Of a stretch of 37,648 nt of DNA, positions 12,781-21,997 are shown in pieces. The first letter of the stretch is position 1, and the number at the start of each line of letters is the position of its first letter. Made by a program: the position numbers and the translations under genes. The DNA is taken from positions 1 through 37,648 of the forward strand of contig JAUIAM010000030.1 of assembly GCA_030425485.1 (NCBI GenBank), given 5' to 3'. A model generated the notes under the pieces. The model did no database searches and was not told the origin of the DNA. It was given only the letters and a program-made list of their open reading frames with translations. Origin of the DNA: Verrucomicrobiia bacterium (GTDB taxonomy: Bacteria > Verrucomicrobiota > Verrucomicrobiia > Opitutales > Cerasicoccaceae).

Positions 12781-13446
12781 CTAGGCACTGGCGCTGGTCG
12801 GAAGCGAGCCCTCGATGAGCCCCTGCTGGATGGCGTAGCGGGTGAGGCTGGCCACGTCGTGCAGGTCGAGCTTCTTCATCAGGTTTGTGCGGTGGTTTTC
12901 CGCGGTCTTGACGCTGATGTTGAGCTTCTGTGCGACTTCCTTGGTGCTGTAGCTCTCGGCGATGAGCTGGAGAATCTCGCGTTCGCGGGCGGTGAGCACG
13001 TCCACACCCTTGCGGTTGGGAGCGTTGGGGTTGAGCACGGCCTCGCGGAGCATCTGGGCGACCTCGGGGCCGAAGTAGCTTCCGCCATTGGCCACGATTT
13101 CGATGCCCTTTTTGAGCTCGTTGAGCGGGGCGGCTTTTTCGACAAATCCGTGTGCACCGGCTTGGAGAAGCTCTCGCACAAGGGCGGGGTTCTGGTAGCC
13201 GGAAAAGACGAGAACGCGGGTGCCCTTGAGGTGCTTGGCAAATCGGCGGAGGACTTCTGCGCCGTTGAGGCCGGGCAGCATGACGTCGAGGATGACAAAG
13301 TCGGGCTTATGCTCCATGACCTGGTCGTAAGCCGACTGGCCATCGCCACTTTCGGCGACGACTTCGAATGTGGGGTCGGCTTGGACGATTTGGGAAATCA
13401 TGTCCCGCACCGCAGTCTGATCTTCAATGATGACGACTTTTTTCAT
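12781..13446 (-). CDS. NarL/FixJ-type response regulator
   Basis: A 221-residue two-component response regulator. The receiver domain has the acidic pair E8/D9, phosphoacceptor D54 in [14 protein letters not shown]82 in VLVFSG and K104 in GFVEKAAP. A LuxR-type helix-turn-helix occupies about residues 150-210 ([15 protein letters not shown], then [20 protein letters not shown]). No histidine kinase is beside it, so it is an orphan here. Its targets cannot be inferred. Confidence 0.95.
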
Positions 13447-13608
13447 TGTGCAGTTTGTTACAGAGTTTCATGTAGCACGATAAGGGCAAGCCATCACCCT
13501 CAAAAGCCGCAGTCTCCTCAGTTACCGTTAGGATTATCACGTAATCCGCATTGTAAAGGCTTTTTACTCTTAGTTCCACCTAGGGGTCCGAATTCAGATT
13601 TCCTTTAC

Positions 13609-13634
13609 AAATACCCCCATGGGGTGGGGTATTT
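13609..13634 (-). terminator. probable terminator after tRNA-Lys
   Basis: A perfect 9-bp stem (AAATACCCC at 13609-13617 with GGGGTATTT at 13626-13634) lies 28 bases beyond the tRNA 3' end. The T run is short on the minus strand and stronger on the plus strand (TATTTTCTTTTT), so it could act in either direction. Confidence 0.5.
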
Positions 13635-13662
13635 TCTTTTTGCCAGAATCTGAGGAAAAAAG

Positions 13663-13738
13663 TGGTAGGCCGACTGGGACTCGAACCCAGAACCAATGGC
13701 TTAAAAGGCCACTGCTCTACCGATTGAGCTATCGACCC
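13663..13738 (-). tRNA. tRNA-Lys (UUU)
   Basis: A complete 76-base tRNA read on the minus strand. The acceptor stem pairs GGGTCGA with TCGGCCT, the D arm is GCTCAATCGGTAGAGC, the anticodon loop CTTTTAA gives anticodon UUU, the T arm is CTGGGTTCGAGTCCCAG, and the CCA end is encoded. It is the attachment site of an integrative element: its 5' half (13698-13738) is duplicated at 18219-18259. The promoter of the present gene must therefore lie in element DNA. Confidence 0.96.
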
Positions 13739-13739
13739 A
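13698..13739. repeat. attachment-site direct repeat, tRNA side
   Basis: This 42-bp segment is identical to 18219-18260. It runs from the 3' strand of the anticodon stem through the anticodon loop and D arm to the tRNA 5' end plus one base. The flanking bases differ on both sides (AAT/GAA and TCTG/AAGG). Confidence 0.93.
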
Positions 13740-13784
13740 TCTGATTGAAAATCAGTATGTTATGACTCTTTGCAAACTTTAATT

Positions 13785-13804
13785 TGTCACCCGCACCTGT
13801 AACC
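13785..13804. promoter_or_regulatory. candidate integrase arm-type site, left end
   Basis: TGTCACCCGCACCTGTAACC lies 46 bases inside the left attachment repeat and just before the integrase gene. It matches TGTAACCCGC-T-ACCTGTAACC at 18072-18092 near the right end with one substitution and one inserted base. The core ACCTGTAACC occurs at 13795, 18069 and 18083. Confidence 0.5.
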
Positions 13805-13818
13805 GCATCCTCAAAACC

Positions 13819-14885
13819 GTGTCAAGTTCTCCAGAGTACGTAAAGGTAGCTCAGTGCCTTTATCGCCATTCGCAAAGCGGAGTTTACTACGCTCTCGTCA
13901 AGCGGGCTGGCAAGCAAATTCGTCGATCTTTACGAACGAAAGATCGCAAGCTTGCTGAGCGCAAGTTGGCCGACTTCCGTCGCAAGGTAGATAGAATGTA
14001 CAAGCAGGCCGGGGACAAGGCTGTGAGCTTCAAGGAATTTTCTTTGATGTGGCTGAACATTTCCCAGGCCGGTCACAAGACCCGCACGAATACGCGACAG
14101 GAGGCTTCGGTCAAGCAACTCACCTATTACTTTGGCATCAAGCGCGTGCGGGATATCACGATCCGCGATTGCGAGGCATGGCATGTGGGGCGTAGTCCCG
14201 ATGTGTCGGCTTCGACCTTCAACAAGGAACGGGATGCCCTGATCGGCATTTTTGATATGGCCGTGCGGGATGGGCTCATTCTCGACAACCCGGCACGGCA
14301 GATCGACCGCCGCAAGATCGCGAAGCCGCAGATCGTTATCCCCACTCGCGAGCAATACCGCTTGCTATTGCAAACCATGCGTGAGGATAATCCTCGGGCC
14401 GTACGGACTGCCAAGGGGGCCTTTCTGGTGGAATGCCTTGCCTGTTCGGGGATGCGGGTGGGGGAGGCAACTGCCATGCGCTGGGGGATATCGATTTTCA
14501 GCGCAAACTGTTCACCGTCACAGGTGGGCAGGCTGGCACCAAAAACGGGGACGTACGAGTTGTGCCGCTGTTCCCTGCCTTCAAGGATTTCCTCAAGCGG
14601 CTCAAGAAGGCGGTTGGGGGACGGCCTACCGCCTCTGATTTGCTCATCGGTATCGACAGTGCCAAGCAAGCACTGCAAACTGCCAGTGCCAAGGCTGAGT
14701 TGCCGCACTTCACGCATCATTCCATGCGCCATTATTTTGTCAGCAACGCCATCGAAGCTGGAATCGACTTCAAAACCATCGCGGCCTGGGTAGGACACAA
14801 GGACGGCGGCTTGGTGGTTGCGAAAACCTACGGTCACCTGCGCGATACCCATTCCGCCGAAATGGCCAAACTCATGAAAGCTTAA
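13819..14885 (+). pseudogene. int: tyrosine recombinase/integrase, frameshifted in a G run
   Basis: A phage-type tyrosine integrase that would target tRNA-Lys. It starts at GTG 13819. Residues 1-60 are an arm-binding-like domain, a SAM-like core-binding domain follows, and the catalytic domain starts near residue 170. Arg213 lies in CSGMRVGEATAMRW. The frame then breaks at the five G at 14483-14487; one more G would join it to GDIDFQRKLFTVTGG. The second frame keeps the Lys hairpin (GTKNGDVRVVPL), HxxR (HSMRH, about 301-304), WVGHKDGG and the nucleophile Tyr338 (KTYGHL). The product as written stops at 14793 without HxxR or Tyr. The repaired length is 355 residues. Programmed slippage is possible but unproven. 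Confidence 0.85.
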
Positions 14886-14906
14886 CCATCAACCGAAAGT
14901 ATCAAT

Positions 14907-15175
14907 ATGAGCGTTAAAGCCATCGAAGAAGTACAAACTCATGGAAACACAGTTCACCGTCGAATTTACCCAAGAGGAGGCTGAGGGGATACGCAGGATC
15001 GCAAAGCTGACAAGCATTCCAGAGGAAACGATCATCCGCTTTTCGCTTCGGGATTCTTTGGGGGTTCAATCAGTATGAAGGATTCAGTCAGGAGGACGTT
15101 TTTAACGCCATGGCCAATTGCATGGAGGACGGTAGGATTACACATGAAAGAAGCCGCCTTGAAGCTACATACTGA
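14907..15175 (+). pseudogene. frameshifted copy of the small gene at 15229
   Basis: From ATG 14941 one reads METQFTVEFTQEEAEGIRRI and onward to a stop near 15080. Skipping one G in the five-G run at 15060-15064 continues the frame as LGFNQYEGFSQEDVF to a stop at 15173-15175. The joined product aligns along its whole length with the protein at 15229 (LGFNRYKNFSREDIF there). A second in-frame start signal at 14907, coding MSVKAIEEVQTHG, resembles the N-terminus of that protein (MSDTTVVDMQSHG) but lies in yet another frame, so there may be two lesions. It is the upstream half of a tandem duplication. Confidence 0.7.
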
Positions 15176-15228
15176 CGAGAATGCGTTAAGGCTAATGGAC
15201 TCATAATCAATAAATAAAGGATACGAAA

Positions 15229-15516
15229 ATGAGCGATACAACTGTTGTAGATATGCAAAGTCATGGAAGCCAGAGTGCATCCATTCCCGCCAAGACTCAA
15301 TTTGCCATCGAATTCATCCAAGAAGAGGCCAAGGGCATCAGAAATATTGCCGAGGCTCTTGATGTATGCGAAGAGGACATCGTGAAGTTTTCACTTCGGC
15401 ATTGCCTTGGCTTCAACCGTTACAAGAACTTTAGCCGTGAAGACATCTTCGTAGGGCTCGTTAGCCATATTGAGGACGGGGAGTTTGATCGAGAATGGTA
15501 CACCATTAATTTCTAA
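15229..15516 (+). CDS. small ribbon-helix-helix-like protein
   Basis: A 95-residue protein with no family that I recognise by name. After a polar N-terminus of about 22 residues, the order strand (TQFAIEF), helix (QEEAKGIRNIAEALD), helix (EEDIVKFSLRHCLG) resembles the ribbon-helix-helix fold of small DNA-binding regulators; this is inference from pattern. The C-terminal 40 residues are acidic. AAGGA eight bases before the ATG is a good ribosome site. It is a tandem paralogue of the broken gene at 14907. The place right after the integrase fits a regulator or directionality factor of the element. Confidence 0.65.
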   Translation: MSDTTVVDMQSHGSQSASIPAKTQFAIEFIQEEAKGIRNIAEALDVCEEDIVKFSLRHCLGFNRYKNFSREDIFVGLVSHIEDGEFDREWYTINF

Positions 15517-15538
15517 ACTAAATGAGGTAACGAACATT

Positions 15539-15567
15539 GCGGGCTGGGTTGCATATTCCCGGCCCGC
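15539..15567. other. GC-rich stem-loop between small genes
   Basis: A 10-bp stem (GCGGGCTGGG at 15539-15548 with CCCGGCCCGC at 15558-15567, one G-T pair) has a 9-base loop. It stands out in AT-rich surroundings and ends 15 bases before the ATG at 15583. No T run follows, so it is not a normal terminator; it could limit translation of the next gene or be a repeat remnant. Confidence 0.55.
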
Positions 15568-15582
15568 CTTCCCATCAAAAAC

Positions 15583-16152
15583 ATGGATTCAGAAGATCAA
15601 AAATACACTGAATTGTTAGAGAGTTTGTATCGTAAATCTTACTCTATTTACGAGCGAACATCACTGCTTTTGGGCCATCGCTTATATTCCTTTGCTTCAA
15701 GCAAAGCGTTACCCTCAACACAGATGTCAATCGACCGTGTGGATCAGTTTAGGGAGCGATTGGCCGCGCCAAAATCGCTTGCTCCCACACTGGCTGAGGA
15801 CATTGAGTTGGAAATAATGCGAAATTTAATGGTACGTAGTGCCAATCGAAAATCCATGTCTGTGGATGTGGAGATGAAGTCAAGCATGGAGGGGGCAATG
15901 TGTCTGGCCGGTTACTTGGCGATGTGCATAAGTCGTGAGAAGTTTAGAGCCAACGTCTCAAGGTTCTGTAGGATACATGCGGTGAAGCCCAGCGGTATCA
16001 GTGATCGAACTATGCACCTGCTTGGATTGAATCGCTTGCATTACATTCTTGTTTTGCTTTATGAGGTGAGTCGTCAAGCCATCCTCGGTCACATGGGCAG
16101 AGGGAGATGCATTCCGGCATTACCTTACTTGTTTGCATGCCCAAGCATCTGA
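15583..16152 (+). CDS. hypothetical protein of the element, C-terminus probably frameshifted
   Basis: A 189-residue open frame with no recognisable family. It is predicted mainly helical, with a hydrophobic stretch around residues 105-115 (GAMCLAGYLAMCI) and another at LHYILVLLYEV. The last 25 residues (from about 16085) look unlike protein, whereas a second frame over the same bases reads EGDAFRHYLTCLHAQASEIS and stays open to 16354. The simplest view is a longer gene of about 256 residues that gained one base near 16092-16104. The gene is AT-richer than the chromosome flanks. Confidence 0.5.
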   Translation: MDSEDQKYTELLESLYRKSYSIYERTSLLLGHRLYSFASSKALPSTQMSIDRVDQFRERLAAPKSLAPTLAEDIELEIMRNLMVRSANRKSMSVDVEMKSSMEGAMCLAGYLAMCISREKFRANVSRFCRIHAVKPSGISDRTMHLLGLNRLHYILVLLYEVSRQAILGHMGRGRCIPALPYLFACPSI

Positions 16153-16354
16153 GATTTCTAAATCGACATATGATGAAACGATGAAAGCGTATCGGTCACA
16201 CCTATCAACCGCCCGTACGCTTACCAGTATATTGAGGGCACAGGCAGTGGTTGGTAATGATCGAGATATATATAATTTTATTGATGTTAACCGCGATGCT
16301 CTTGAGCGTCATGATGCCGCAAGAGGTAGTTTATTGCGCAGAAAGTGGTTATAA
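16070..16354 (+). pseudogene. displaced C-terminal part of the gene at 15583
   Basis: This frame is open from a stop at 16067 to 16354 and reads as a soluble helical protein, including DAFRHYLTCLHAQASE and NFIDVNRDALERHDAARG. It has no good start of its own (TTG at 16133 without ribosome site). It overlaps the end of the upstream frame by about 80 bases, as expected after a one-base insertion. An alternative is a small independent gene starting at TTG 16133 (73 residues). Confidence 0.45.
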
Positions 16355-16436
16355 AATTCCCCTCTGATATCTTATTGTGGCTATACAATATGGAGGTGAA
16401 TTGTCTGTGCGTTGGATGTGATGATCGTTTGTCTAG

Positions 16437-16464
16437 TTGCTTTCGGGCTCGACTTTGGTATAAG
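16437..16464 (+). promoter_or_regulatory. candidate sigma-70-type promoter
   Basis: TTGCTT and TATAAG are separated by 16 bases, ending 11 bases before the ATG at 16476. Transcription would start at or near the start codon, giving a leaderless message, in keeping with the lack of a ribosome site. Confidence 0.35.
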
Positions 16465-16475
16465 CATCCACAGGA

Positions 16476-16820
16476 ATGTTGAGCGCCTACCATCCAAGAC
16501 GCACACGACACTTTAAAAAACTAACGCCTACGTATCGACGTTTACTACGGCAATGCTCACGCGAAGACGAGGATGCGGAAACGCTATCTCTCGACGAATT
16601 CAGGGAAGAGCTTCAGCGGATCGTGACCGGTGGGCCTATGGACCAGATTGGGGAATCCCGTCAGCCCTCTAGAAGCAATGCGGAGAGCCTTTGGCCTGCC
16701 CGCCTACGCATCCGAAGGTACATTTCCCGGCACAAACGCCTGACGCCAGTTCGCAAACAATTAAAGGGTATTTTGCACTGGAACCTGATTCGCATTTCCC
16801 TTTTCGATCTTGATGTTTAG
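16476..16820 (+). CDS. hypothetical basic protein of the element
   Basis: A 114-residue protein that I do not recognise. It is rich in Arg/Lys at both ends (HPRRTRHFKKLTPTYRRLLR; LRIRRYISRHKRLTPVRKQ) with an acidic helical middle (EDEDAETLSLDEFREELQR). Nucleic-acid binding is possible but unproven. Its end overlaps the next ATG by 8 bases (ATGTTTAG), so the two are probably co-translated. Confidence 0.5.
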   Translation: MLSAYHPRRTRHFKKLTPTYRRLLRQCSREDEDAETLSLDEFREELQRIVTGGPMDQIGESRQPSRSNAESLWPARLRIRRYISRHKRLTPVRKQLKGILHWNLIRISLFDLDV

Positions 16821-17073
16821 CCAACGGGAGCACTGCGTTTGTTGTGACTCTCCGGACGCAGATGGTCTCGCAAATGTGCCTGTTGTTTGCGGCCAGAACA
16901 GGCTCCTCTGGTCAGTAGCAACTTGTGTTTGTGCGGATTGCGGGGCCGCAACAACGGTTTGCGGTGCATTCGTTTGTGACGGTGGAAACGGATATCAGTC
17001 GATTGCGATTAGTCGGAGGGTTAGCGGTTTATACATATTTGTAGGCACAGTTGTGGCTGACCAGCTTGATTGA
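16813..17073 (+). CDS. small Cys-rich protein, possible zinc-binding
   Basis: An 86-residue protein with nine Cys in its first 55 residues: C8, C10, C11, C26, C38, C40, C43, C50 and C55. The CxCC and CxCxxC spacing (EHCVCCDS, TCVCADCG) suggests one or two structural metal sites of zinc-ribbon type. The C-terminal 30 residues hold a moderately hydrophobic stretch (GLYIFVGTVVADQ). I recognise no family. The start at ATG 16813 lies inside the end of the preceding gene. Confidence 0.45.
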   Translation: MFSQREHCVCCDSPDADGLANVPVVCGQNRLLWSVATCVCADCGAATTVCGAFVCDGGNGYQSIAISRRVSGLYIFVGTVVADQLD

Positions 17074-17186
17074 ACTTCTCTCATTCCCTGTTAAGTCGGG
17101 CAGTGTCAACGTTGCTCCAAAAGGGGCGATGGGATTGCTGATTATCGCTGCTTGCGATTTCTGCATCATACACGATTATGGCCTGA

Positions 17187-17798
17187 ATGACCGCGGATCG
17201 GTATAAGGTAGAAGACGATGCATTTGATCACGTGCATGGTGTTCTGAGAAATAAGCTGGGTCTGACGACTGAGAGGGACATTGCCCAGGCAGAGATCAAG
17301 GGACTCGTGGCTGCATTTGACTTCGCCTATACCAATTATGAGACCGATCAGCTTCTTAGTTCAACGGATGTTTGCGATCTTCACCGGGTCTTTTTGGGTG
17401 AACTTTATGAATGGGCTGGTGCATATCGCACCGTCAATATGTCGTCCGATGTTATCCTGTGGTGTTCGGCCAATTACATTGAAAATCAAATGGCAGCGTT
17501 TGATCAATTGCTCAAATCGCTAACTCCATTTTCGCAATCACTTGGTATTGCAGAAGTCAGCCAGCGGATCGCCCAAATTCATGCTGAGCTTATCCTGATC
17601 CATCCCTTTCGCGAAGGCAATGGGAGGCTGGTGCGCCTCTTTTGCAATGTGCTCTTATCTCAGGGCTGGTTTGAGAATGTGGACGAAGATATTTTCTACC
17701 ACGAACGGGAACGCTATTTTACTTCGATCCGTGAAGCGTACGCAAACGGGACTTATACGGAATTAACTGCTATTTACCGCGAATTGCTTGAAGGGTAG
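17187..17798 (+). CDS. Fic domain protein (AMP-transferase type)
   Basis: A 203-residue Fic/DOC-superfamily protein. The catalytic loop HPFREGNGRLVR at 139-150 is the complete HxFx(D/E)GNGRxxR motif, so nucleotidyl (AMP) transfer to a protein target should be possible. The flap region NMSSDVILWCSANYIENQM lies at 84-102. I see no clear inhibitory [S/T]xxxE[G/N] helix at either end of the protein, and no typical small antitoxin gene directly upstream. Fic proteins of mobile elements often act as toxins that target gyrase/topoisomerase IV or other host proteins; the target here is unknown. It is the only long intact gene of the element. Confidence 0.92.
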   Translation: MTADRYKVEDDAFDHVHGVLRNKLGLTTERDIAQAEIKGLVAAFDFAYTNYETDQLLSSTDVCDLHRVFLGELYEWAGAYRTVNMSSDVILWCSANYIENQMAAFDQLLKSLTPFSQSLGIAEVSQRIAQIHAELILIHPFREGNGRLVRLFCNVLLSQGWFENVDEDIFYHERERYFTSIREAYANGTYTELTAIYRELLEG

Positions 17799-17970
17799 AG
17801 CGGACAGCCTGGCCGACTCCCTCATGCTCAAGCTGCTGTAATTCAGAGACGAGGGCTTGAGTACCAACTTCACCATATTCAACCCGATGAGACGACAGGG
17901 CATGGCGAATGGCCATGAAGCGCCGCTTCTTGGGAGTGTCAAATGCCGGACGGTTTTCGTGAAGTTTCAT
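17770..17970 (-). CDS. possible 66-residue protein convergent with fic
   Basis: A small basic, helix-rich frame (MKLHENRPAFDTPKKRRFMA, then SELQQLEHEGVGQAVRST). It overlaps the 3' end of the fic gene by 29 bases on the opposite strand. A TTGACT box with a TTAACT box 17 bases on lies just upstream, but there is no ribosome site. No family is recognised, and it lacks a clear Fic-inhibitor motif. It could be a fic antagonist by position, or a chance frame. Confidence 0.35.
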   Translation of the reverse strand: MKLHENRPAFDTPKKRRFMAIRHALSSHRVEYGEVGTQALVSELQQLEHEGVGQAVRSTLQAIRGK

Positions 17971-18068
17971 TAGGGGTAGTTAAGTGGATAATTAACCCAT
18001 AGTCAAACCGCATCTGGTAGGGCAATTTGCTGGTCATATCCTTACCCAATTGCGTGCTCAGTTTTGTA

Positions 18069-18092
18069 ACCTGTAACCCGCTACCTGTAACC
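18069..18092. promoter_or_regulatory. candidate integrase arm-type sites, right end
   Basis: ACCTGTAACC occurs twice, at 18069-18078 and 18083-18092, 14 bases apart and about 127 bases inside the right attachment repeat. The same string occurs at 13795 by the left end. Other short repeats follow towards the end: GAGTCTATTT at two places near 18108-18140, and GGACTaggggAGTCC at 18181-18195. Confidence 0.5.
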
Positions 18093-18218
18093 CAATGCGA
18101 AAAACAGAGTCTATTTCAGTCTCGTGGAGTCTATTTGTGATTCGACCTAAATCATTGACTATCAATGAAATGTCCAGTGTGGACTAGGGGAGTCCAACGC
18201 AGTCTAAACCATAAGGAA

Positions 18219-18260
18219 GGCTTAAAAGGCCACTGCTCTACCGATTGAGCTATCGACCCA
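18219..18260. repeat. attachment-site direct repeat, far end
   Basis: Identical over 42 bp to 13698-13739, the 5' half of tRNA-Lys. No tRNA 3' half follows, so this is a tRNA fragment and marks the right end of the element. Precise excision would rejoin the tRNA 3' half with this copy and its original upstream DNA. Confidence 0.93.
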
Positions 18261-18437
18261 AAGGAGAAACGTGAGAAAAAAGGCCATCGTCTGGACCTTG
18301 GCAAGCGTAAAAGACCCAAAAGAAGGCTCGATAGCCTGTCGGTGCGGTCTGTGGGCCGTTTGGGTAAGCCCTGCTGACTGCGATGTGAAGTGGATCTGCG
18401 GGGGAGGAGGGGTTAGGCGGTGTTTTCAAATTCATCA
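18261..18437. other. non-coding stretch beyond the element
   Basis: No convincing gene. This DNA should be the original upstream (promoter) region of the tRNA-Lys gene before integration. On the minus strand TTGCCA and a T-rich block 17 bases on could be promoter remnants. GCGTAAAAGACCC near 18305 is an inverted partner of GGGTCTTTTCGC near 18451. Confidence 0.4.
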
Positions 18438-18573
18438 AGGTCGTAGAAAAGGGTCTTTTCGCGTCTTTTTCCGTTTTCTCAGTTCATGAATCTGGATTCA
18501 CACCACTTCGAAAGCCGAAAAAATCCTCAAAATTACCTCTTTTTCCCTCGTTTCTTAATTTGAAGACACCGCC
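18438..18573. repeat. dispersed intergenic repeat of about 130 bp, copy 2
   Basis: It aligns along its length with 2394-2522 and ends exactly at the stop codon of the beta-phosphoglucomutase gene. Copy 1 lies between two divergent gene starts, so position relative to genes is not conserved. Confidence 0.65.
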
Positions 18574-19247
18574 TAGTGCGTTCCCAGGGGTGAGGGCTCC
18601 AGGAGCTCGGCCAGGCTCTTTACGATAAAATCTGCTCGGGGGAGGGCCTGTGCTGTGCCGATGCCGACGGCTTTCATCTTGGCGCGGTGGGCGGCCTCGA
18701 CGCCCGCTTCGGCGTCCTCGTACACGACGCACGCCTGCGGCTCCAGGCCAAGTGCCTTTGCGCCGCGCAGGAATACTTCCGGATCGGGCTTGGCATTCGC
18801 AACGCAGTTTCCATCGATAACGGCATCGAATAAGTCAGTGATCTTGAGCTTATCCAGGATGAGTGGAGCGTTTCGGCTGGCTGAGCCCAGGGCGATTTTT
18901 ACTCCCTGGGAGCGCAGCGACTGGATGTACTCGCGCGCACCGGGCAAGATCTCGTCTTCGCCCATCGCTGAGATCATTTCGACGTACCACTCGTCCTTCA
19001 GTCTGCTCATGTGCACGCGCAGGTCTTGACCGATGTCGAGTTGACCGACTTCGAGCAGGATATCGAGTGAGCGCAAGCGGCTTACGCCCTTGAGCCGCTC
19101 ATTGTCGAGCTCGGTAAACTCAAAGCGTAACTCGTCGGCCAGGCGTTTCCATGCTTCGTAGTGGTATTTGGCCGTATCGACAATGACGCCGTCGAGGTCA
19201 AAGAGGGCGCCGCGTGCCTGCTGGATAAAAGTGGGCAGTTTGGTCAT
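18573..19247 (-). CDS. pgmB: beta-phosphoglucomutase
   Basis: A 224-residue HAD-superfamily enzyme that converts beta-glucose 1-phosphate to glucose 6-phosphate. The HAD motifs are ALFDLDGVIVD (nucleophile and acid/base Asp), ALGSASRNA, ANAKPDPEVF (Lys) and VVYEDAEAG. The cap has RLKGVSRLRSLDIL, typical of PgmB. The ATG at 19247 leaves a 4-base gap after the stop of the GH65 gene; an earlier ATG at 19274 would overlap it. The two form an operon that phosphorolyses an alpha-glucoside and feeds the product to glycolysis. Confidence 0.93.
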   Translation of the reverse strand: MTKLPTFIQQARGALFDLDGVIVDTAKYHYEAWKRLADELRFEFTELDNERLKGVSRLRSLDILLEVGQLDIGQDLRVHMSRLKDEWYVEMISAMGEDEILPGAREYIQSLRSQGVKIALGSASRNAPLILDKLKITDLFDAVIDGNCVANAKPDPEVFLRGAKALGLEPQACVVYEDAEAGVEAAHRAKMKAVGIGTAQALPRADFIVKSLAELLEPSPLGTH

Positions 19248-19251
19248 GGAA

Positions 19252-21570
19252 CTAGTTTTCAATGGTGACGCCACATGTGGCCTCGATCGTTTCCCCCGGG
19301 TTGCAGGTATGCAGATTGCCGTAGAGGCTGAAGGTTTGGGGGGCGGTATTGGTAATCTCTGAGCTAACGGAGACGGAGCCGGGGGTCAGGACGGCTGTAA
19401 ACCAGAGACCCTTGCGGCAGAAGCGAAAGCTCAGCCGGGTCCAGGCTGCGGGTAGCTGGGGGGCGATGGTAATGGTCTCGCCCTCGTAGGCCCGCAGTCC
19501 ACCAAAGCCCAGGACAGCGGCCATCCATGCTCCGCCATTTGCGGCGGGGTGCGTGCCGCCGATGTACAGTGGCCCAATGAACTGCTTGGACTTTCCGGTG
19601 AGATCGATGGTGGCGGTGCGCAGAAAATACTTGTAGGCCCACTCGGTGCGTCCGAGCTCGGCGGCCAGCAGGGCGTAGACACAAGGGCTGAGGCTGGAAC
19701 CGTGCTCTGTGCGCGGCTCGTAGTAGTCCCAGTTAGCTGCTTTGATTTCGGCAGAATACTCCGACGAAAAAAGGTGGAGCATGAGGACAACATCCGCCTG
19801 CTTGAGCACCTGGGTCGCGGTGGCAACACCGTTTGCTCCGCCCCAGTATTCAGTGGGGTCGAGGAGGCGGTCTTTGAGTGCCGCCGGGGTGGTGTTTTCC
19901 AGGGTGAAGTAATCGCTGAACTGCTCGATGAGGCCCGTATCCTCGTCGGGTGCGGGGACGAAGAGTTTGGCCTGGAAATCCTTGAGGCACTCGCGGTCGT
20001 CGTAGTAGTCAAGCCGTTCGATTAGTGTTTCGCAAAAGGCGGTGTGGTCGCGCTCGAGCAGTTCGATGGTTTGGAGTGCAATGGTGGCTGTGGCTCGGGC
20101 CATGGCCGAGGTGAAAGCGTTGTTGTGGACGCGCTCGTGGTATTCGTCGGGGCCGACGACATCGCGCATTTCATAGCGGTCTGCCTCCGGCTTATACCAG
20201 GCGTAGGAGTAGAGGAATCGGGCGCACTCGAGGATGACTTCGGCCCCCCCGCTGATGAGGAGGTCTGCATCACCGGTAATATGGTAGTGACGCCAGGTGG
20301 CCAGGGCGACATCGGCGCTGATGTGCACTTGCTTGTCGCGGAAGTACGTCCGCATGGGACGGTTGGTGAGGACGTCGGTGATGTTAAACAGGGTGCAGGC
20401 ATCGTCGCCGGTTTCCTGACTTTCCCAGGCGTAAAAGGCGCCTTGGTAGCCGTACTCTGCCGCTTTCCGGCGGGCGCCGTTGAGTGTGTGATAGCGGTAA
20501 CGTACGAGGTTGCGGGCCATCACGGGTTGGGTGTGGTCAAAGAACGGCTGCATGAAAATCTCCGTGTCCCAGAAGATGGCGCCTTTATAAACCTGACCGG
20601 AGAGGCCGCGGGCGGGGATGGAGGCATGGCCCGTGGCAGGGGCGGCAATAAGCAGATGGTATATGGAGTAGCGCAGCGCGTGCTGGGCCTGGTCGTCGCC
20701 TTCGATCAGGACATCGCTGTTGAGCCAGCGTGCCTTCCAGCGGATGCTGTGCGCCTTTAGGAGTGCGTCATAGCCCGCCTGAGAGGCTGTGCTCAGGCTG
20801 CTCATGGCGGCAGTTGCGGGAGCCTCTGTGTCGGCTCCTGTGTGCGTGGCGATGTATTTAGTAAAGGAATAGGTTTCTCCCGCTTTGGCTTGAAAGCGGA
20901 AGCGCTGGGAGATGCCCTTGGGCGTTGTCGCGATCTCGGGTTCGGGGAGTGTTTCGCTGCGTAGCGATGTGGCTACGACAACCGTGATGCCGGCTTCGCC
21001 CGTGACGGAACTCAGGGTGAGGGTTTCCCCGTCGCTATGGGGGTGGAAGTCCTTCAGGTGTGGGCCGTTGATGTCCCATATGTCGCCCTCGATTCCGGTT
21101 TCAATTACCAACTCGCAGGATTTTGAAGCGGTGACGGCGTAGTGGAGCACGCCGAGGTGCTTGTTCTCAAGGCTGAGGAAGCGCTCCGAGCTAAGGGTGA
21201 TTTCGTTGCCGTCCTCCAACACAAAGGCGCTTTGGCGTGCGTGAACGGCGCGTGAGAGATCAAGCCGCTGGTGGTGCCGAACGGGGGAGGTGCTCAGGGT
21301 GGAGCAGGGGATGCCGTCGGCACTGACCTTGACGCCGAAGGCGTGCGGTGTGTTGACGGGTTCGCGCCACTGCTCACCGTGACGATCGTACAGGCCGGAA
21401 ATCGTGCAGGCGGCCAGTTGCTCCGGGCCATGCTCCTCCAGTGTGCCGCGCAGCCCGATGAAGCCGTTTCCGATGAGGAATTTGTTGCCATGCTTTTCGA
21501 TGTCGTCTGCCTGAAAGCTGTCGACGCAGACGGCCCATCGGGGGTCGGTTTGTGTGCTATGGTTTTGCAT
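19252..21570 (-). CDS. GH65 family disaccharide phosphorylase
   Basis: A 772-residue inverting alpha-glucoside phosphorylase of glycoside hydrolase family 65, releasing beta-glucose 1-phosphate. Family blocks are FLIGNGFIGLRGTLEE, IFWDTEIFMQPFF, GYQGAFYAWESQETGDD, DVVGPDEYHERVHNN (the general acid should be Glu476), KQADVVLML, EHGSSLSPCVYA and GPLYIGGTHPAANGGAWM. There is no signal peptide, so it works in the cytoplasm. Maltose, trehalose, kojibiose and nigerose phosphorylases all share these motifs, and the specificity cannot be told. ATG 21570 was chosen over TTG 21597. Confidence 0.93.
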   Translation of the reverse strand: MQNHSTQTDPRWAVCVDSFQADDIEKHGNKFLIGNGFIGLRGTLEEHGPEQLAACTISGLYDRHGEQWREPVNTPHAFGVKVSADGIPCSTLSTSPVRHHQRLDLSRAVHARQSAFVLEDGNEITLSSERFLSLENKHLGVLHYAVTASKSCELVIETGIEGDIWDINGPHLKDFHPHSDGETLTLSSVTGEAGITVVVATSLRSETLPEPEIATTPKGISQRFRFQAKAGETYSFTKYIATHTGADTEAPATAAMSSLSTASQAGYDALLKAHSIRWKARWLNSDVLIEGDDQAQHALRYSIYHLLIAAPATGHASIPARGLSGQVYKGAIFWDTEIFMQPFFDHTQPVMARNLVRYRYHTLNGARRKAAEYGYQGAFYAWESQETGDDACTLFNITDVLTNRPMRTYFRDKQVHISADVALATWRHYHITGDADLLISGGAEVILECARFLYSYAWYKPEADRYEMRDVVGPDEYHERVHNNAFTSAMARATATIALQTIELLERDHTAFCETLIERLDYYDDRECLKDFQAKLFVPAPDEDTGLIEQFSDYFTLENTTPAALKDRLLDPTEYWGGANGVATATQVLKQADVVLMLHLFSSEYSAEIKAANWDYYEPRTEHGSSLSPCVYALLAAELGRTEWAYKYFLRTATIDLTGKSKQFIGPLYIGGTHPAANGGAWMAAVLGFGGLRAYEGETITIAPQLPAAWTRLSFRFCRKGLWFTAVLTPGSVSVSSEITNTAPQTFSLYGNLHTCNPGETIEATCGVTIEN

Positions 21571-21997
21571 TGTGCGAGGGAGAGGGGGGTGAATCAAGCA
21601 GCGCTCGGTCTCTAGCTGTGATAGGCTTCAGGGCTACCTGGGTAGAATGGGTATACTGCTGCAGAAGCCCGGCTCTCTCAAGAATCGAGTCATATCCACA
21701 ACGGTAAAACAACTGGATGATCTGGTAACGAAAAGTGCATCCCGTATGGTTCCAATTGCTATCGAGTATTGTTTTAGCAGATACTTGGGGGATTGGTTAA
21801 GTACCGTATTGTGCAACTTAAATACCTGTGTCTGCTCTTGATGGGGCTTTGGGAGGCAGGGTTGATGGGGTAAATTCAGATTAGAAAAAACATTTTAGCT
21901 GACATGTGTTTATGTCGATGCTAAGGTGCGAGTACAATCCCATTCTTAGGCTGGGCCTTGCCTGGCGCTTCCCCTGTCACCCCCATTTGCGATTCCC
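21571..21997. other. divergent intergenic region, GH65 and sialidase-like genes
   Basis: About 430 bases between the GH65 gene (minus) and the sialidase-like gene (plus). Small frames here look like chance. It holds a candidate LacI-type site at 21884, a minus-strand ATTCTACCC at 21640-21648 matching the direct repeats near 25.9 kb, the palindrome CTACCTGGGTAG at 21634-21645, and GACATgtgtttATGTC at 21901-21916. Confidence 0.6.
21884..21899. promoter_or_regulatory. candidate LacI-family operator 1
   Basis: GAAAAAACATTTTAGC lies 98 bases upstream of the sialidase-like gene. It differs only at the central two bases from the site at 36368, and matches those at 26038 and 36665 at 14 of 16 positions. 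Confidence 0.55.

Follow-up and report, generated by a model that had tools for sequence, protein, structure and literature searches.

A probable 4.5-kb integrative element at the anticodon region of tRNA-Lys(UUU) and the 5'-half polarity of its integrase relatives

With most integrases that target tRNA genes, the tRNA stays under the control of the host promoter. The question raised by the present locus is which half of tRNA-Lys(UUU) was supplied by the adjoining element, and from which DNA the tRNA is now expressed. The locus lies in the window, a 37,648-nt stretch of DNA from a bacterium of the Verrucomicrobiia. The sequence comparisons indicate that it very probably holds a 4.5-kb integrative element with its own tyrosine integrase, located at the anticodon region of tRNA-Lys(UUU) and belonging to a clade of reversed polarity. 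The direct repeats at 13698-13739 and 18219-18260 are identical at 42 of 42 positions with a spacing of 4521 bp, which is also the size of the element (~4.5 kb) if one repeat unit is included. Simple counting gives a chance of ~1e-17 for an exact 42-bp repeat within 37.6 kb. ARAGORN identified a single tRNA in the window, tRNA-Lys(UUU), with nt 1 at 13738 and nt 76 at 13663. The repeat contains nt 1-41 of this tRNA and one upstream base, and nt 42-76 are host DNA. Both the perfect repeat at the element ends and the supply of the 5' half, up to the anticodon arm, by the element agree with the original prediction in content and coordinates. A search for another tRNA-Lys(UUU) gene, which had been proposed with it, found none in the assembly (98.2% complete); among the remaining matches to the tRNA-Lys query, one is a tRNA-Lys with the anticodon CUU and one a tRNA-Asn. 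The features of the two ends are as follows.

13663-13738, minus strand: restored tRNA-Lys(UUU) (ARAGORN; Rfam RF00005, 73 bits; genus alignment)
13698-13739: putative attachment-site repeat of 42 bp at the tRNA end (repeat match; same block in genome G001)
13740-13818: element leader from the tRNA 5' end to the integrase start, the present upstream DNA of the tRNA and probable attP arm (sequence comparison)
18219-18260: putative far attachment-site repeat, corresponding to the displaced native tRNA nt 1-41 (repeat match; Rfam)
18261-18313, minus strand: native upstream DNA of tRNA-Lys, now displaced, that includes a candidate native promoter, TTGCCA-N17-TTTTTT, and is common to the empty sites of genomes G002 and G003

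The genes between the two ends comprise an integrase and a small set of other ORFs.

13819-14885, plus strand: tyrosine integrase gene with a frameshift near 14480, read in the frames 13819-14793 and 14433-14885 (Pfam PF00589)
15229-15516, plus strand: small ORF of 95 aa without a Pfam match, present in the G001 element as well
15583-16152, plus strand: ORF of 189 aa with no match in Pfam or PADLOC
17187-17798, plus strand: cargo protein of the Fic/DOC family (Pfam PF02661; PADLOC candidate defence family PDC-S04)

The PF00589 domain matches the window frame 14433-14885 at 1.4e-10 and the intact integrase of G001 at 2.7e-18, alongside weak integrase matches to a SAM-like domain. The G001 homologue is a single ORF of 355 aa, with which the two window pieces share 90 and 91% protein identity. 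The R, H-x-x-R, H and Y columns, which we take to be the catalytic motif of tyrosine integrases, are invariant across 11 aligned integrases. The window copy has probably lost self-mobility because its integrase is frameshifted. Among the five non-integrase ORFs of the element searched against Pfam, the Fic protein alone had a match. No match to a replication protein was found among the tested window ORFs; in relatives, such matches were Rep_1 in the G001 element and REP_ORF2-G2P in a tRNA-Met element. A phage origin is not supported, as neither close phage relatives nor phage genes were found with Pfam on the element ORFs, in phage records or in viral contigs. All 96 phage records matching the integrase have identities below 60% (~25% for the best among the matches listed), and three viral-contig loci carry integrase relatives at 24-32%. 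The PHROGs comparison covered the integrase and two replication proteins.

The polarity of the integrase relatives was examined in the loci of the best 80 of 110 relatives. An upstream tRNA faces the integrase with its 5' end in 60 of these loci and with its 3' end in one; three have only a downstream tRNA, the 3' end of which faces the integrase, and 16 have no tRNA. Far fragments were counted for blocks of at least 30 nt, a 22-nt match of locus L155 (beyond the tRNA, corresponding to its nt 61-82) and a second 24-nt copy of L114 having been dropped beforehand. Three duplicate pairs were counted once (L109/L088, L111/L087 and L179/L093; the contigs of L109 and L179 are as long as those of their partners, and the L111 element is as long as that of L087). 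The count gave 19 distinct elements including the one in the window, with duplicated blocks ending at nt 37-41. In the integrase tree, the branch of the window has 41 rows, 38 of them with a labelled tRNA, always facing with the 5' end (L156 and G003Thr have identical sequences, L134 contains an internal stop, and the tree leaves out partial loci). The integrase belongs to a large family, found chiefly in Verrucomicrobiota, whose members almost always adjoin the 5' half of a tRNA gene.

The strongest alternative, itself quite improbable, is that polarity varies freely across the wider clade, the tRNAs being merely near the integrase and the loci related by descent at one site. Near-copies do occur among the MAG loci, and far fragments are present in the minority of the loci read: in the DNA examined, they are absent in 48 of the 60 5'-facing loci of the survey and in 9 of 18 5'-facing loci of another set, where many contigs end early and several have 10-20 kb of room. 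There are also four 3'-facing relatives (G000 Leu-CAA, G171 Leu, G127 Leu and L145), three of which were placed in the tree, nested within the wider group. However, the 60 loci include 18 anticodon kinds, and all 19 of the elements with a far fragment, which span ten tRNA kinds, duplicate the 5' half. Furthermore, the three more distant integrases of the same genus that touch a tRNA (L196, L201 and L203) all face its 3' end, among the 30 of 36 PF00589 matches read. Six matches without a locus were omitted from this set, L208 gave no ORF, and L204 (the same as L073) lies at a 5'-facing tRNA-Arg. The 3' half of the 3'-facing tRNA-Leu(CAA) was sought in its own genome and none was found; the sole match of that search was one of 80% to the 5' part, on another contig.

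Comparison of four genomes within the genus shows a real insertion at tRNA-Lys. G002 and G003 have a single tRNA-Lys(UUU) at the same place, and a partial second copy is absent from the matches listed in the genus search. The upstream DNA of their tRNA-Lys corresponds to the window from 18261 onward, not to that from 13740. Alignment of the far flank with the G002 and G003 upstream DNA gave scores of 21 and 23, reached by 0 of 1000 shuffles, vs. 10 and 7 for the element side, for which 13 and 399 of 1000 shuffles scored as high. The far flank is homologous over only ~50 bp because the DNA beyond 18575 is no longer syntenic with G001-G003. In G001, a related element of 10.4 kb is arranged in the same way, with 42-bp repeats at L016:3813-3854 and 14297-14338 (0 mismatches, nt 0-41). 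There, the chromosome of G002 and G003 resumes 313-413 bp past the far repeat; the first 70 nt past it show no match to the empty sites (scores reached by 748 and 981 of 1000 shuffles), which may be explained by an integrase remnant at this position. Neither a 42-bp duplication without the element nor a tRNA joined to the DNA now at 13740, the two arrangements contrary to the original prediction, is seen in G002 or G003. The flank alignment and the genus comparison also uphold its claim that integration parts tRNA-Lys from its native upstream DNA.

The same comparisons bear on a second alternative, in which 18219-18260 is no attachment site but the relic of a second tRNA-Lys gene, or arose by segmental duplication. 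Rfam does score 18189-18259 marginally above its cut-off as a full-length tRNA (31.2 bits vs. 29). However, the identity is exact over 42 bp and ends inside the anticodon stem, and ARAGORN reports no tRNA at 18219-18260. With the same configuration in G001, a similar boundary in clade members at other tRNAs and one copy in G002 and G003, this explanation is very unlikely. Least likely of all is a conventional 3'-half element at the opposite flank of the tRNA with an incidental 5' repeat: 3' polarity is the bacterial rule in the consulted portion of the Islander report (3760 of 3919 islands; PMC4383910), whereas here no 3'-half duplication is among the repeats listed for 13000-19500, synteny with G001-G003 holds for the genes downstream of the tRNA, and the integrase abuts the tRNA 5' end in the window and G001 alike.

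In the preferred reading of an integrative element at the anticodon region, the restored tRNA would be expressed from element DNA. The original prediction held that the element brings a new promoter, for which the promoter scans offer no support. A sigma-70 consensus scan of 67 element-side upstream regions gave 7.76 vs. 7.67 for shuffles (8.16 in the integrase direction), and native tRNA-Lys upstream regions, for which alone an order-wide tRNA-Lys search was used as the source, gave 8.5 vs. 7.6 (n=28). A restricted scan gave an excess of +1.5 +/- 0.18 for native regions (n=25) and +0.05 +/- 0.10 upstream of restored tRNAs (n=60). In a paired comparison of the element side with the displaced flank, in which some of the 'native' flanks are remnants of other elements, the native side was higher in 5, tied in 3 and lower in 10 of 18 pairs (means 6.9 native and 7.5 element, p=0.09), showing no clear difference. 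An element side without a promoter was dropped as an explanation because this paired control in the same hosts gave no deficit, and the first contrast between native and element regions probably reflects lineage. A hand-picked candidate, TTGCAA-N17-ATTTTC, lies upstream of the restored tRNA as a lookalike of the native promoter. The further claim that dependence on the element favours its retention has little force: once excised precisely, the element would leave the tRNA joined to its native promoter again and the native gene restored. The tRNA would be harmed only upon a ragged loss of the integrase-side DNA.

Pairs of short repeats lie inside both ends of the element.

13786-13805: GTCACCC (13786) and GTAACCG (13799), probable arm-type repeats of the integrase, 13 bp apart, the second read by eye
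18073-18093: another probable arm-type pair, GTAACCC at 18073 and at 18087, some 131-145 bp away from the far repeat

Similar repeats near the position of the first pair occur in most of the window's branch. In the 15 elements tested out of the 19 with a far fragment, the heptamer lies within 150 bp of the tRNA in 13 and 131-148 bp from the far fragment in 12, against a background of 0.03 per 300 bp in the element middle. With comparable offsets on either side, the pairs resemble the arm sites of lambda-type integrases, and their recurring positions suggest such a role. By the proposed mechanism, attP would carry tRNA nt 1-41, and the integrase would insert the element by a crossover probably within the anticodon loop. 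The 5' half from the element would then join the host 3' half and restore the tRNA, and the native 5' half would be displaced by 4.5 kb together with the native promoter. The prevailing polarity of the clade is the reverse of that of usual tRNA integrases: the integrase gene, and probably one arm of attP, are found next to the tRNA 5' end.

A broader joint reading, for which we judge the chances to be even, is that a Verrucomicrobiota-centred clade of tyrosine integrases is committed to tRNA 5' halves, covering 18 anticodon kinds or more, and that the arm-type repeats determine attP polarity, one pair being located beside the integrase gene on the tRNA 5' side. Essential tRNA genes would then routinely come under element-borne upstream DNA. 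The native promoter would be left stranded beside a 5' tRNA half, from which transcription may run into the element, and elements would be stacked in layers, with old integrase remnants just past the displaced fragment. A broad bacterial clade with this opposite habit would offer many natural cases of an essential tRNA that needs expression from mobile DNA, and the determinant of integration polarity could be tested by comparison with the few 3'-facing relatives. For island finders and tRNA annotation pipelines, it is a warning that elements of this phylum land at the 5' flank of tRNA genes too. No description of this integrase clade was found in the literature covered by a partial search, in which '5-prime' is unsearchable as a word.

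Lambda-type tyrosine integrases use arm-type sites, and the present element resembles them in the short direct-repeat pairs on both sides of the core, known here by recurrence only, the PF00589 domain and the weak SAM-like matches. An element reportedly described by Zhao and Williams in 2002 (J Bacteriol 184:859, cited in PMC6563490) is also among the closest known systems. The pTN3-like elements of Thermococcales (IntpTN3) use the 5' half of a tRNA gene as attB (PMC5495485, PMC8371274). According to the consulted portions of these papers, the likeness extends to a 41-bp shared stretch and a restored tRNA parted from its original promoter. However, the pTN3 integrase gene is disrupted on integration, whereas here the whole gene is next to attP and points away from the tRNA, and in G001 it is a single ORF. 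The host is archaeal for pTN3 and bacterial here, and the likeness rests on the site arrangement, not on the integrase sequence. In the consulted portion of the Islander report (PMC4383910), which contains no description of a clade for them, the islands with a 5' tDNA fragment number 159 of 3919 and share the signature of an intact tDNA and a displaced 5' fragment with the integrase in between; anticodon-centred sites are a known class of tDNA sites there. The original prediction was right to take a 3'-end repeat as the norm, in that 5' polarity is uncommon by these counts, though already known from pTN3. Elements using the 5' half are known in both archaea and bacteria, and the window element joins this known kind.

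A repeat search of 13000-19500 in the window showed a 42-bp direct repeat whose two copies are identical throughout, bearing out the perfect repeat predicted for the element ends. Given the position of the tRNA-Lys(UUU) gene, the repeat comprises nt 1-41 of the tRNA plus one base. The features are as follows.

13663-13738, minus strand: tRNA-Lys(UUU), the sole tRNA called in the window by ARAGORN
13698-13739: first repeat copy
18219-18260: second repeat copy, the displaced 5' half
Between the copies: tyrosine integrase gene, oriented away from the tRNA, its start lying 80 bp from the 5' end of the tRNA
Between the copies: several short ORFs without Pfam matches
Between the copies: Fic-family protein (Pfam), a candidate defence family in PADLOC

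In the assembly, a frameshift near 14480 splits the integrase into frames 13819-14793 and 14433-14885, and its cause may be biological or an assembly error. The displaced fragment and adjoining element DNA (18189-18259) score as a marginal full-length tRNA in Rfam (31.2 bits).

The locus was compared with those of three further genomes of the genus (G001, G002 and G003; four in all with the host). G002 and G003 carry a single tRNA-Lys(UUU) in the same neighbourhood, and the genes left of the tRNA in the window are syntenic. The window DNA beyond the far copy aligns with the 70 nt directly upstream of the tRNA in G002 and G003 with scores of 21 and 23, matched by none of 1000 shuffles. For the DNA at 13740, the scores against the same regions are 10 and 7, values reached by 13 and 399 of 1000 shuffles. 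G001 has an identical layout, with an exact 42-bp repeat, ~10.4 kb between the copies and an intact integrase of 355 aa. The first 70 nt past its far repeat showed no match to the empty sites of G002 and G003: the scores were reached in 748 and 981 of 1000 shuffles. The G002/G003 chromosome picks up again 313-413 bp further out, and an integrase remnant sits in this gap. In none of the four genomes does the duplication occur without an element, or does a tRNA lacking an element adjoin the DNA at 13740; either arrangement would have refuted the finding. Both window copies carry A at acceptor-stem position 7, where it pairs with U66; G001, G002 and G003 have G there, with C66. One parental 5' half goes to each end, so the simplest reading is that A7 was present both in the incoming attP and in the native gene, which suggests that the element came from a host sharing this tRNA, or that the copies were homogenised later.

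The original prediction also held that the element brings a new promoter and makes tRNA-Lys expression depend on element DNA. The host assembly (98.2% complete) yielded no further tRNA-Lys(UUU) gene, and thus the restored gene is presumably expressed with element DNA upstream. An element-borne promoter could not be demonstrated; the promoter tests gave opposed results. The displaced flank retains a candidate native promoter, TTGCCA-N17-TTTTTT, of which TTGCCA occurs with identical spacing in G002 and G003. The dependence is therefore conditional, because precise excision would bring back the native arrangement.

Further out, synteny with G001-G003 ends at a MITE-like 162-bp inverted-repeat element (18414-18575, ends TAGGCGGTGT...ACACCGCCTA), and thus a rearrangement or a mis-join in the assembly may account for the connection to the DNA from 18576 on. 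The host genome contains at least 40 matches to this element with identities of 93-100% (40 of 72 candidates scored); nine of the listed matches begin at contig base 1. The region 18576-21597 encodes a HAD hydrolase and a 781-aa ORF resembling a glycoside phosphorylase. Its DNA has matches elsewhere in G001 (C35) and G003 (C129), and none in G002 at E <= 1e-10. 

The G001 integrase was searched against 273 genomes of the order, sampled evenly from a larger group: 23 had a match at E <= 1e-25, and a tRNA was present in 27 of the 29 such loci scanned. Closer reading of 21 loci (L080-L099 and L016, the G001 tRNA-Lys locus) showed that the 5' end of the tRNA faces the integrase in 18 and the 3' end in three (G171, G127 and the Leu-CAA locus of the host, G000). 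A far copy was seen in nine of the 18 5'-facing loci, every one a 5' half; none was found in the locus sequences of the other nine or of the three 3'-facing loci. A named genome collection was also scanned with an alignment of 11 integrases. The best 80 of 110 relatives are mostly from Verrucomicrobiota, some are from Kiritimatiellota, and a few are MAGs with other labels. In 60 of them the 5' end of an upstream tRNA faces the match at a distance of 81-262 bp, in one (L145) the upstream tRNA presents its 3' end, three have a downstream tRNA only (3' end facing) and 16 have no tRNA. Far copies of at least 30 nt occur in 12 of these 60, each a 5' half.

Together, the window, the nine order loci and the relatives give 19 distinct bounded elements (repeated loci counted once) at ten tRNA kinds: Lys UUU, Arg UCU, Arg CCU, Leu UAG, Leu UAA, Met CAU, Thr CGU, Thr UGU, Ser GCU and Cys GCA. 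The duplicated blocks are 32-43 nt long and exact in 18 elements (L162 has one mismatch in 38). In 17 of the 19, the start lies between nt -2 and 1; of the other two, one starts at nt 5, where the copies differ, and one is cut by a contig end. The blocks end at nt 37-41, which fits a crossover in the anticodon loop. The G001 element codes for a Rep_1 replication protein and, at L016 9894-11006 and 13460-13999, for a KAP P-loop NTPase (PADLOC PDC-S20) and a protein matching the candidate defence model HEC-09, these two suggesting defence cargo. A second clade element in the host (L086, G000:C33 132600-140478) lies at tRNA-Met(CAU) with a 40-bp 5'-half duplication, and encodes a PIN-domain protein and a REP_ORF2-G2P-type replication protein. 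A minimal member at tRNA-Arg(CCU) (L105 9885-11581) spans 1655 bp from tRNA to far fragment, of which the integrase match takes 1026, and has the heptamer pair described below at each end.

A quick maximum-likelihood tree of 85 integrases, built without bootstrap and with several long branches, places the window within a 41-row branch with SH-aLRT 95 (98 for 40 rows without L129). A labelled tRNA is present in 38 of the 41 rows, all 5'. The wider ingroup of 80 rows has 64 5' labels and three 3' labels, the latter nested. As a control, 30 of the genus's 36 PF00589 matches were read. The three more distant integrases that touch a tRNA (Val, Glu, Asn) have it at the downstream end of their gene, 3' end facing, and one wider-group member (Leu CAA) is likewise 3' end facing.

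Comparison of the regions upstream of the tRNAs in the window's branch (35 non-redundant of 39 sequences) showed a recurrent tandem GGGTTACAA-like repeat. Its information content peaks near -76 and -63 relative to tRNA nt 1, and 31 of the 35 have at least one pattern match. The window copies are closer to the tRNA, at -66 and -54. The heptamer was sought at both ends of 15 of the 19 elements and found on the tRNA side in 13, 47-80 bp in, and 131-148 bp from the far fragment in 12, against a background of 0.03 per 300 bp in the element middle. The Thr-CGU element has it on the tRNA side only, and L124 and L125 at neither end searched. The window copies lie at 13786, 13799, 18073 and 18087. From their placement, the paired repeats are read as candidate arm-type integrase sites. 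Different paired repeats, of GTATAGAAAA or GGTGGTCAA types, were read by eye at similar places upstream of the tRNAs of other subgroups (L138-L144, L149, L156, L158, L164 and L173), as if the putative arm sites change along with the integrase subgroup.

Within 1.5 kb past the far fragment, 6 of the 18 elements tested, out of 19 (two flanks being shorter than 1.5 kb), carry part of the beginning of another clade integrase, pointing the same way and at most 225 bp from the fragment. By E-value alone, three remnants are strong (G001 Lys, 2e-6; G000 Met, 3e-5; G001 Leu, 4e-16) and three marginal (4e-4 to 1e-3). The window site showed no such layer within this distance. At the tRNA-Met site, G002 has an integrase remnant beside the tRNA, G000 has an element plus a remnant, and G003 has a leader and a longer integrase start. 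Layered remnants are what repeated integration into an intact tRNA would leave. At the G001 tRNA-Leu(UAG) locus (L085), the start of a Thr-type sister-group integrase with its own GGTGGTCAA repeats adjoins the far fragment, probably two element types in tandem at one tRNA.

Recombination at the 5'-distal part of tRNA genes is described as considerably less frequent (Krupovic et al. 2019, PMC6563490, citing Zhao and Williams 2002), and Islander lists a 5' fragment in 159 of 3919 islands (PMC4383910). The pTN3-like archaeal integrases target the tRNA 5' half, with bacterial counterparts seldom met according to an archaeal review (PMC8371274), and Cossu et al. 2017 describe a 41-bp shared stretch and a tRNA cut off from its original promoter (PMC5495485). 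Because 5'-half elements are already reported, the window element belongs to a known kind. Phages with tRNA-dependent lysogeny meet a related problem with another solution, bringing in a whole tRNA gene (PMC10865867). Among the literature searched, the clade-wide polarity seems less known than the 5'-half elements themselves.
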